From positions 94,227 to 158,226 of the forward strand of contig JAKASR010000005.1 in NCBI GenBank assembly GCA_021818955.1: a DNA stretch of 64,000 bases, given 5' to 3'. Shown in pieces: positions 3,555 to 7,457 of the stretch. This stretch comes from Acidobacteriota bacterium. GTDB lineage: Bacteria; Acidobacteriota; Terriglobia; Terriglobales; SCQP01. The notes below the pieces were generated by a model. That model saw only the letters and a list, made by a program, of their open reading frames with translations. It did not search any database and had not been told where the DNA came from. A program made the translations under genes and the position numbers. Each line of letters begins with the position of its first letter. The first letter of the stretch is position 1.

Positions 3555-3787
3555 AGACTCCTCGGTTGGACGGAAATTGGGAACATGATGGCCTTGCGGC
3601 CATACCCCGCTTATTCGAAGCCAAAAGCTTTGAATATGTTACAAGAAATTCCACTCCATTTTTAAGCCATGGCTGGCGTCGAGGGATCATGCCCATTGTT
3701 TCCTCCACTACGGCGCAGCCTCAACCGCTCGGCTATACTGAACGTTTACCCCATCCAATCATTGAAATGCCTGTTTGCGACCGAATC

Positions 3788-4744
3788 ATGCCCCGTTCGA
3801 TGGAAGGCGCGCCTCGCCGGCGCGAGCCGATCCAATCGTTAAAAATCCTGTTTTTAATCTCGCTTTGGGGGTTTTTAGCGCTGGCCGATTCCGGCTGCGG
3901 CTTTCTCTGGGTGAAAGAGCATGTCAAGAAGCTGGCGCCGCATCCGCCCATGTTGAGCGCCACCACCCCCCAGTTGCTGGCGATATTGCAAAAAGAAGCC
4001 GATGCGGTGAAGACTTTGAACGCCCGGGTGGAATTGCGTGTCGCCTCGGGCGGGCCGAAATCCGGCGTGGTCACCAAATACCGCGAGGTCACCGCGTACC
4101 TGCTGGTCAGCAAACCCAACGATATCCGTCTGCGAGGACAATTTTCGATCCTGGGCCTGACCATCTTCGACATGGCCTCGATGGGCAATCAATTTGAGCT
4201 CTCCATCCCGGAACTGAACAAATTCTATGTGGGCCTGAATAATGTCATTCCGCCGAAAGTGAAAAATCCGCTGGAACGGCTGCGGCCGCAGGTCATCCTG
4301 GAAAGCCTGCTGATCAATCCGGTGCAAGGCGAACAGCGCGTGGCGCCGATGAACGATCGGGCGGAATCGGCGGCGGAGTACCAACTGCTGGTGGTCCAGC
4401 CCAAGCAAGCCGAGGTGGACCAACTGGTGCGGCGGGTCATCTTCAGCCGCTACAACCTGCTGCCGCTGGAGCAGATTATTTACGACTCGCAGGGCAACCC
4501 CGCCACCCAAGTCACCTATAGCCGCTATCGCCGCACCCAGGGGGTGTGGCTGCCCTGGCAGATCCTGATCGTTCGGCCGGTGGAGGAATACTCGATCCGG
4601 CTGAAGATTTCGCACTTGACCCTCAACCAGCCGCTGTCGCCGAACAGTTTTATGCTACAGCAGCCGGCGGGCAGCAAATTGATCCGGCTCAGCCGCAACC
4701 GGATCCCCGCGGCGCGCCGCGGCCTCGCGTCCGGCATGCACTGA
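3788..4744 (+). CDS. Outer-membrane-type lipoprotein, LolA/DUF4292-like
   Basis: The protein is 318 aa from the ATG at 3788. The hydrophobic segment (residues 17-34) ends in a lipobox-like ADSGC with Cys37 as the probable lipidation site. The rest is beta-rich with repeated short strands, resembling the LolA/LolB-like fold of DUF4292 lipoproteins. An earlier in-frame ATG at 3767 is possible. TATACT at 3734-3739 is a plausible -10 box, which argues against still longer forms. Its stop lies 13 bp before the permease start and it heads an operon with the permease and the AhpD-like gene. A role in lipid or lipoprotein handling is inferred only from fold and context. Confidence 0.72.
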   Translation: MPRSMEGAPRRREPIQSLKILFLISLWGFLALADSGCGFLWVKEHVKKLAPHPPMLSATTPQLLAILQKEADAVKTLNARVELRVASGGPKSGVVTKYREVTAYLLVSKPNDIRLRGQFSILGLTIFDMASMGNQFELSIPELNKFYVGLNNVIPPKVKNPLERLRPQVILESLLINPVQGEQRVAPMNDRAESAAEYQLLVVQPKQAEVDQLVRRVIFSRYNLLPLEQIIYDSQGNPATQVTYSRYRRTQGVWLPWQILIVRPVEEYSIRLKISHLTLNQPLSPNSFMLQQPAGSKLIRLSRNRIPAARRGLASGMH

Positions 4745-4757
4745 AGGAGCGCCGAGC

Positions 4758-5870
4758 ATGGCCGCAACCGAACGCATGATGAACCGGATGGTGCTGTCGA
4801 ACCTGCAGCGCCGGCCGGTACGCAGCCTGGTGGCGATTATCGCCATTGCGGTGGAAGTCGCCTTGATTCTGCTGATTGTCGGCCTGACCAACGGCATGGT
4901 GCGCGATAATCGCAAGCGCGTCGCCGGGGTGGGCGCCGACGTGGTGGTGCGCCCCTCGAGTTCCTCCATGTTTTTTGCGCTCGGCGGCAATACGATGCCG
5001 CTGCAACTGGGCACCAAGCTGGCGGCATTGCCGGGCGTGAAAGCGGCGGCGCCGGTGGCCATGCACCTCACCGGCTCGCTGACCACCATTGGCGGCATTG
5101 ATCTCGCCAGCTTCAATGCGGTCAGCGGCGGCTTTCAGTTTCTCGCCGGCGGCCCGTTTCGCCGTCCCGACCAGGTGATCGTGGATGACATTTACGCCAG
5201 CTCGAAACATCTCCGCCCCGGCCAATGGATCACGCTGCTGGCGCATCGCTTCCAGATCGCCGGCATTTTCGAGCACGGCAAAGGCTCGCGCATTTATATT
5301 TCCCTGAACGAGCTCGATCACCTGGTCGGCTCGCCCGACCGCGCCGCGGTGATTTACATCAAGCTGCAAGATCCCCACCAGACAGCGGCCAAGGTGGCGC
5401 AACTGGAAAAAATGCTGCCCGGCTACACCATCCAGCCGATGCAACAATATTTATCGTTGTTTACCTCGGCCAATATGCCCGGCCTGCCGGCGTTTCAGCG
5501 CACCATGATCGGCATCGGGGTGATCATCGGCTTTCTGGTGATTTTTCTTTCGATGTACACCACCATCCTGGAGCGCACGCGCGAGATTGGCATTTTAAAA
5601 TCGCTGGGCGCCTCGCGCGCCTATATCGTGCAGGCGATTTTGCGGGAAGGCACGGCGCTGGCGCTGCTCGGCATTGCGGCCGGCATCGGCCTGGCCTGGG
5701 GCATTCGCGGCCTGCTCGACGCCCTCGACCCGGCGCTGACGATCCATATGACCTGGGCCTGGGCGGGCTGGGCGGCCGGCATTGCCATCGTGGGCAGCCT
5801 GATCGGCGCCAGTTACCCCGCCTACAAAGCCGCGGCGCAGGACCCGATCGCCGCCCTGGCTTACGAATAA
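4758..5870 (+). CDS. ABC transporter permease, MacB/FtsX type
   Basis: The permease has 370 aa. A first membrane helix lies at about residues 22-44, followed by a MacB-type periplasmic domain of about 200 residues. A C-terminal FtsX domain has three membrane helices near 250-275, 300-325 and 338-360. The cytoplasmic coupling motif (LERTREIGILKSLGAS) is clear. Such permeases drive lipoprotein or small-molecule export and normally need a cytoplasmic ATPase. None is encoded next to it here, so the ATPase partner must be elsewhere or absent. It sits between a lipoprotein gene and the AhpD-like gene in one operon. Confidence 0.87.
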   Translation: MAATERMMNRMVLSNLQRRPVRSLVAIIAIAVEVALILLIVGLTNGMVRDNRKRVAGVGADVVVRPSSSSMFFALGGNTMPLQLGTKLAALPGVKAAAPVAMHLTGSLTTIGGIDLASFNAVSGGFQFLAGGPFRRPDQVIVDDIYASSKHLRPGQWITLLAHRFQIAGIFEHGKGSRIYISLNELDHLVGSPDRAAVIYIKLQDPHQTAAKVAQLEKMLPGYTIQPMQQYLSLFTSANMPGLPAFQRTMIGIGVIIGFLVIFLSMYTTILERTREIGILKSLGASRAYIVQAILREGTALALLGIAAGIGLAWGIRGLLDALDPALTIHMTWAWAGWAAGIAIVGSLIGASYPAYKAAAQDPIAALAYE

Positions 5871-5883
5871 ACAGGAGAACGCT

Positions 5884-6447
5884 ATGCGCATCAGCCGGAT
5901 TGGCTACCAAGACGCTGCCGAACCCTTGCGCGACCTCTACGACCGCTGGTACCAGCAGCGCGGCAACGTGCCCAACATGTTTCGCGTGATGGCGCATCGT
6001 CCCGAGCTGCTGCGCACCCTGGAGCGCCACTTTCATTGCGTAATGCAGACCGGCACGGTCTCGACCGCCTTGAAAGAACTGCTCGCGGTGCGGGTTTCGC
6101 AGTTGAATCATTGCGAGTATTGACTGGCCTCGCACACCGCCTTGGCAAGGCGGCTGGGATGGCCGGAGGCCATCCTCACGCAACTGGCGGATTTCGAGCG
6201 CCTCGAGCCGGGCGAAAGCGCAGCGGAAAAACCGAGCCTGGGCGCCGCCGAAAAGCTGGCCCTGCGCCTGGCGGAAGCGATGACGCTCGGCGCGCAGGCC
6301 ATGAGCGATGATTTGTACGCCGGCCTGCGGCGGCATTTCGACGAAGGGCAAATCGTCGAGCTGGCAGCGGTGATCGGGCTTTTTAATTATTTCAACCGCT
6401 TCAACAACGCGCTGGAAATGGCGCCGACACAGCCGGGCGAGCGCTAG
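5884..6447 (+). CDS. AhpD-like carboxymuconolactone decarboxylase-family protein, probable selenoprotein
   Basis: The full product has 187 residues if the TGA at 6121-6123 is read as selenocysteine (residue 80). The same frame is open on both sides and both halves belong to one AhpD-like domain. The redox motif becomes Cys77-Glu-Tyr-Sec80, followed by LASHT with His84 four residues after Sec. Glu65 lies 12 residues before Cys77. This matches the spacing of Glu118, Cys130, Cys133 and His137 in mycobacterial AhpD. The C-terminus (IGLFNYFNRFNNALEM) is intact, and a strong AGGAG at 5873-5877 precedes the ATG. Likely a thiol/selenol peroxidase-like reductase in the cytoplasm. A nonsense mutation is the alternative, but a change exactly at the second redox Cys plus the hairpin below favours Sec. 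AhpD-like selenoproteins are a known class. Confidence 0.8.
6121..6153 (+). promoter_or_regulatory. Candidate bacterial SECIS element with Sec UGA
   Basis: The TGA at 6121-6123 is followed by C, a context favouring Sec insertion. Thirteen nt later CCGCCTT (6137-6143) and AAGGCGG (6147-6153) form a perfect 7-bp stem with apical loop GGC. The loop starts with G and lies 20 nt after the UGA. This agrees with the published bacterial SECIS pattern (loop 16-37 nt downstream, G among the first two loop bases). The stem is within coding sequence, as expected in bacteria. Confidence 0.65.
6158..6174 (+). other. Second hairpin downstream of the candidate SECIS
   Basis: GATGGCC, loop GGA, GGCCATC: a perfect 7-bp stem inside the AhpD-like coding region, 4 nt after the first hairpin. 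Its loop is about 41 nt from the UGA, beyond the usual SECIS distance. It may be incidental or help stall the ribosome. Confidence 0.4.
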
Positions 6448-6464
6448 CTATCCGCCTTGAGCGT

Positions 6465-7457
6465 TTACTGCCAGCGCATGCCGGCATCCGGCGCGGCGAT
6501 TTGCGGGAGGCGCAATTGCCATTCCACCAGGGCCCAGGCGGCGATGCCGACCAGCACGCCGCCGAGCGCATCCACGATGAAGTGATAATCGCCCATCACC
6601 GTGGCCACGGCAATCAGCCCACCGCCGAGCAGAAACAGGCCGCCCCACATTTCGCGGCGGGCGCTCAGGGCGCAGCCCAGCGCGATCGGGCCGGCGACAT
6701 GCGCGCTGGGAAAAATGCCGTAAGGAATGGAAAACCTGCCCAGCAGCCACCAGTTCAGGTTATGCAGCCAGCCGTCGGCGGGCTGGTGCAATTGCGGATA
6801 ATACAGCCGCGGCGTGATGCCGGGCAGCAAGGGAAAAAAGCAATAGCTCAGCATCAAGGCGGAAAGCATCGCGCCCACCATCGCCTCGGCGCGGTGCAGG
6901 CAGGGCGGGCGCTCGCCCGGCGCGGTTTCCGCCGCCGAGGGCCGCCGCAGGCAGGGCCGGATGGCCAGCAGCAGGCCGAGAAATAACAGCAGGTAATTGA
7001 GCAGGTAAACCGCCTGCCAAAAATCGTTGGCGAGGCCCAGGGCCGGCGGCAGGCGATGCCGCCAATTCAGGCCGAAGAGACCGCGGTCGAGGCCCGAGAG
7101 CCAATGCTCCACCGGCAGCGCCGGCACCAGGCGCTGGCGGAAGGCGCCCGCTTCCTCATAGACCAGCGGCAACACCAGGAACAGTTGCAGGAAAAAATAG
7201 CCCAGCACGCCGCCCCGGGGGGGCAAATAGGCGGAGGCGCGCAAGCGCCCGCCCAGCGGCAGCAGCACGCCCAGCAGCAGCAGGTTCAGCGGAATCCAGG
7301 GCCAGAAGGGAGCGCCTTCGGGGTGGATCAGGCACAGGCCGGCAAACCACAGCGTCCACACCGAAAAAATCAGTTGCGTCGGCAGCAGGCGCAAACGGCT
7401 GCGCAAGGCGGTTGCAGGGACCGCCCATTCCAGGCTCGAGGTGGGCGCCATAGCCAT
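6465..7457 (-). CDS. PAP2-superfamily membrane phosphatase/phosphotransferase
   Basis: The 330-aa membrane protein has about six to seven hydrophobic helices. PAP2 motif 2 is seen as FPSAHVAGP (249-257, catalytic His253) and motif 3 as GDYHFIVDALGG (His292, Asp296). The classical KxxxxxxRP motif 1 is not obvious. The arrangement resembles the Aur1/inositol-phosphotransferase-like subgroup (PAP2_3) rather than UppP. Likely substrates are phospholipid or isoprenoid phosphates at the membrane outer face. It is convergent with the AhpD-like gene, with stops 18 bp apart. Confidence 0.82.
   Translation of the reverse strand: MAMAPTSSLEWAVPATALRSRLRLLPTQLIFSVWTLWFAGLCLIHPEGAPFWPWIPLNLLLLGVLLPLGGRLRASAYLPPRGGVLGYFFLQLFLVLPLVYEEAGAFRQRLVPALPVEHWLSGLDRGLFGLNWRHRLPPALGLANDFWQAVYLLNYLLLFLGLLLAIRPCLRRPSAAETAPGERPPCLHRAEAMVGAMLSALMLSYCFFPLLPGITPRLYYPQLHQPADGWLHNLNWWLLGRFSIPYGIFPSAHVAGPIALGCALSARREMWGGLFLLGGGLIAVATVMGDYHFIVDALGGVLVGIAAWALVEWQLRLPQIAAPDAGMRWQ

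Follow-up and report, generated by a model that had tools for sequence, protein, structure and literature searches.

Why does a gene that otherwise reads as a complete AhpD-like oxidoreductase carry one in-frame TGA at a cysteine position of its active-site motif? We addressed this question for a gene in a 64,000-nucleotide stretch of acidobacterial DNA (the window), for which an initial annotation had proposed a probable selenoprotein. On our reading the gene is intact, yet standard annotation would split it or label it as a pseudogene.

The gene and its reading frame

The gene and its key codons lie as follows.

5884..6447, plus strand: predicted AhpD/CMD-family selenoprotein gene, 187 residues with Sec80, stop codon TAG at 6445-6447 (from the frame, PF02627 and TIGR01926)
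5873..5877, plus strand: AGGAG, likely ribosome-binding site, with the ATG 6 nt downstream (from the sequence)
6076..6078, plus strand: Glu65 codon, proton-relay position (from the sequence, alignment and published spacing)
6112..6114, plus strand: Cys77 codon, first CxxU position (from the sequence and the homologue column)
6121..6123, plus strand: TGA, predicted Sec80 codon, second CxxU position (from the sequence and comparison of the homologue column)
6133..6135, plus strand: His84 codon, proton-relay position (from the sequence, alignment and published spacing)

The plus-strand frame 5884-6447 contains one internal stop, the TGA at 6121-6123, which is codon 80 of 187 (translation M...HCEY*LASH...GER*). 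With the TGA read as Sec, the CMD profile PF02627 matches residues 40-95 and spans the TGA (E = 3e-14), and TIGR01926, 'peroxidase-related enzyme', matches residues 9-182 on both TGA flanks with 85.7 bits, a narrow margin over its cut-off of 81.8. Translation thus bears out the initial annotation's description of a frame broken by TGA alone, at codon 80, and the TIGR01926 match to both flanks agrees with its claim that the 107 codons after the TGA continue the same domain. We dropped the length of this downstream stretch as evidence, since the chance of an open frame as long as 107 codons 3' of the TGA is about 4% in random frames of the same base composition. A chance frame is instead excluded by homology on both flanks together with a TGA that recurs at this column in 53 homologous loci and in 26 more distant ones, described below.

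Fold and active site

An AlphaFold model of the protein (17 sequences, Sec treated as Cys) is all-helical with a pLDDT of 89.4, and it resembles the peroxidase-related/AhpD structures 2pfx, 6k40, 3c1l and 2prr with TM-scores of about 0.8. Glu65, Cys77, Tyr79, residue 80 and His84 are spaced 12/2/1/4, the same as Glu118, Cys130, His132, Cys133 and His137 of Mycobacterium tuberculosis AhpD and Glu36, Cys48, Tyr50, Cys51 and His55 of PA0269 (PMC3141380), so that the AhpD spacing that had been claimed for Glu65 and His84 holds in both comparisons. Residue 80 corresponds to Cys133 of the M. tuberculosis protein, and Glu65, Tyr79, residue 80 (Cys or Sec) and His84 are invariant in our alignment A2. 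We would assign the attacking role to residue 80 and the resolving role to Cys77; the TxxC relatives described below retain only the residue 80 position, which agrees with residue 80 as the attacker.

From the fold and the active-site residues we infer that the enzyme reduces peroxides by thiol/selenol chemistry or carries out a related reaction. Bmp8 (6ohi/6ohj), which neighbours the protein in both structure and sequence, carries the name debrominase in its deposition; a substrate other than a peroxide is therefore conceivable, and no gene conserved in the neighbourhood hints at peroxide stress. A selenoprotein devoted to some other thiol/selenol exchange, such as Bmp8-like reductive dehalogenation or protein disulfide reduction, therefore deserves consideration, but we think it rather unlikely: the AhpD proton-relay residues are retained, and the closer structural neighbours are named AhpD or peroxidase-related, although mostly without a tested activity behind the name.

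The codon 80 column across homologues

Homologues were gathered from genome contigs (one scan) and from whole genomes (two scans), and the codon in the TGA column was read in each. Across the resulting 138 homologous loci, which are partly non-independent (the collections share some genomes, and close relatives are counted separately), the column holds TGA in 53, TGC or TGT in 84 and TCT in one, with TAA or TAG in none. The alignment of homologues that the initial annotation had suggested as a check thus finds both Cys-bearing and TGA-bearing relatives, and it places the TGA where that annotation had put it, at the second Cys of the CxxC motif (Cys-Glu-Tyr-Sec). Every TGA locus (53/53) has a CxxU motif, the Cys always lying three residues before the TGA, and the Cys-form loci comprise 62 TxxC and 22 CxxC out of 84. 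More distant TGA matches fetched from other genomes carry the TGA in exactly the same column in 26 of 26 cases, as do ten further TGA homologues within the order.

The TxxC homologues (among L021-L129 and L177-L197) have Thr for the first Cys, and the sole Cys that they keep is at the Sec position. A more distant branch of homologues (L158, L159, L161-L164 and L167) is CxxT, with Cys at position 77 and Thr (ACG or ACC) in the Sec column. In a quick tree that was computed with columns 77 and 80 removed, four changes are needed to explain the Sec label; the tree is unrooted and many of its branches are weakly supported, so that it does not tell gain of Sec from loss.

A hairpin downstream of the TGA

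Two nested elements follow the TGA.

6124..6166, plus strand: predicted SECIS-type hairpin, directly 3' of the TGA (-25.0 kcal/mol, z -2.85)
6137..6153, plus strand: conserved apical stem-loop, arms 6137-6143 and 6147-6153, loop GGC at 6144-6146

The 7-bp apical stem has all seven pairs in 38 of 39 distinct Sec sequences and six pairs in the remaining one, and the loop GGC is present in 39 of 39, while at least six pairs can be formed in 0 of 67 distinct Cys-form sequences. For covariation, a diverse set of 22 Sec sequences was picked by eye, with the stem defined on the window's own sequence; in this set there are changes on both sides at six of the seven stem pairs, 99.4% of cells pair, and the stem scores 0.678, compared with 0.263 for shuffled sequences and 0.09-0.23 with the partner slid. 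Bacterial SECIS elements are hairpins after the UGA with a guanosine in a small apical loop (PMC1088965). Judged by its sequence, the hairpin studied here has the form of such an element, with a small, guanosine-containing apical loop just downstream of the UGA. A search of the hairpin region against Rfam returned sub-threshold matches only.

One TGA-form homologue (L203, genome G329) does not have the consensus stem. By inspection, a nearby CTGCC-AGTT-GGCAG could form a different, shifted hairpin in that sequence.

These comparisons bear on whether the locus is a pseudogene or a sequencing error, that is, a CxxC AhpD-like gene with a nonsense change. A fresh nonsense mutation would also leave an otherwise intact gene with just one TGA, and TGC is one step from TGA; however, TGA stands in the same column in the 53 homologous loci of many genomes, where TAA and TAG never appear, residues are conserved on both of its flanks, and it is accompanied by a covarying hairpin that Cys forms do not have. 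With the same TGA present in dozens of independent genomes, a sequencing error is untenable, and the comparative data already refute the pseudogene reading; we regard either as extremely improbable.

Selenocysteine machinery and its co-occurrence with the TGA form

The initial annotation had suggested a search for selA, selB, selC and selD, and had held that a genome without selB and selC would speak against a selenoprotein. All four are in the genome, selB and selC among them: SelA scores 524 bits, SelB 339 bits with its C-terminal part included and SelD 369 bits, and a tRNA-Sec with anticodon TCA was found, by a search that is less discriminating near its cut-off, since tRNA-Ser and other tRNAs with a long arm score that high as well.

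Within the order, SelB is over its cut-off in 25 of 27 TGA-form genomes versus 11 of 49 Cys-form genomes (Fisher p 2e-9, uncorrected for kinship). SelA and tRNA-Sec were detected in one of the TGA-form genomes without a SelB match (G391), and the other (G307) is 73% complete and has a partial SelA. In the phylum-wide set, SelB is over the cut-off in 43 of 46 TGA genomes; among those without it, G110 has SelA, and G266 and G080 are 72-75% complete.

Codes in which TGA is read as another amino acid do occur in other bacteria, but there is hardly any likelihood that a code change or readthrough gives Trp or Cys here, given a genome with selA, selB, selD and a tRNA-Sec of anticodon TCA, a hairpin specific to TGA forms, and TGAs that in this family all lie in the active-site Cys column, whereas a code change would spread them over other columns and genes.

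The SelD gene of the same genome (L017; G000:C12:164365-165282) carries a TGA of its own, in frame and close to the N-terminus (KAAG-TGA-AGKL). We take this to be a known Sec site of SelD, and this SelD is probably a selenoprotein too.

Altogether, the exchange of TGA and Cys in one column, the covarying hairpin restricted to TGA forms, the Sec machinery and the co-occurrence of TGA with SelB argue that the protein is almost certainly a selenoprotein with a CxxU active site, in agreement with what the initial annotation had thought probable.

Proposed mechanism

We are highly confident that the gene encodes an AhpD/CMD oxidoreductase with the active site Cys77-Glu-Tyr-Sec80 and that its UGA is decoded as Sec by way of the downstream hairpin. 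In the cell, the UGA at 6121-6123 would be decoded by SelB and Sec-tRNA(Sec), directed by this hairpin. Sec80, at the second (peroxidatic) Cys position of AhpD, would then serve as the attacking selenolate, presumably activated by Glu65 and His84, and Cys77 would form a Se-S bond with the oxidised selenium and so resolve it, after which a thiol system of the cell would reduce this bond.

Genomic neighbourhood

One gene lies close upstream.

4758..5870, plus strand: MacB/FtsX-type permease gene, ending 13 nt before the selenoprotein gene

It is possible that the two genes are co-transcribed. The neighbourhood is almost fully common to the nearest relative (L050) only, partly to L054 and to hardly any Cys locus, and neither the genes around the selenoprotein gene nor those at homologous loci gave a clue to the substrate. 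A promoter scan of 4500-6700 found nothing, and no near match of the window DNA was found among plasmids.

Several observations concern the surrounding DNA and the rest of the genome. A LolA/LolB/DUF4292-like gene at 3686-4744 adjoins the permease gene, and no ABC ATPase gene was seen beside this pair (3686-5870). A bshA gene for bacillithiol synthesis lies at 271-1422 of the window (TIGR03999, 534 bits), its true start probably being inside a longer ORF listed from 121; it is about 4.5 kb upstream of the selenoprotein gene, a linkage that is not general among the homologous loci. Elsewhere in the genome, G000:C35:24165-24626 (L156) was considered as a second selenoprotein of the family and rejected: the flagged TGA precedes the homologous core, and the motif of the protein is CxxC.

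Relation to known families

A 2005 study of the Sargasso Sea described selenoproteins of the AhpD-like CxxU type (PMC1088965); the family is COG2128 in that paper and in PMC2398784, and it is listed under TIGR01926 in a 2026 review that makes no mention of Acidobacteria (PMC13188914). The window protein shares with these selenoproteins, as far as they can be likened by description, the TIGR01926 match, the CxxU motif and a hairpin 3' of the UGA whose small apical loop contains G, and it differs in belonging to an acidobacterial branch, whose other Sec members in alignment A2 are 56-74% identical to it. AhpD-like CxxU selenoproteins are thus already catalogued, and this protein is a further, well-supported member.

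The peroxidase-related/AhpD structures 6k40 (from D. radiodurans), 2oyo, 3c1l, 2pfx and 2prr have the same fold and belong to the same sequence family; 6k40 and 2oyo have CxxC in the alignments, whereas the window protein has CxxU. M. tuberculosis AhpD (Cys130/Cys133, Glu118, His137) shares the proton-relay spacing but is of a different subfamily, and membership of AhpD proper was rejected (TIGR00777, 15.7 bits against a cut-off of 192). The second-best NCBIfam match, NF053654 (YciW-related (seleno)protein), is to a family that by its name includes selenoproteins; membership was likewise rejected, at 82.6 bits against an equivalog cut-off of 310.

Implications

With this locus the AhpD-like selenoproteins gain an acidobacterial branch, in which dozens of Sec members stand beside Cys members in one order; that CxxU, CxxC and TxxC forms are so densely mixed in a single acidobacterial order may be less known. 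We give about even chances to the view that Sec and Cys replaced each other a few times in this subfamily and that a large Cys branch has lost the other active-site Cys (TxxC). If so, the Sec site would be the only position that cannot be dispensed with, and the TxxC proteins would have become enzymes with one Cys that use another resolving step or reductant. The CxxU, CxxC and TxxC forms would offer natural matched sets for asking what selenium contributes at the active site.
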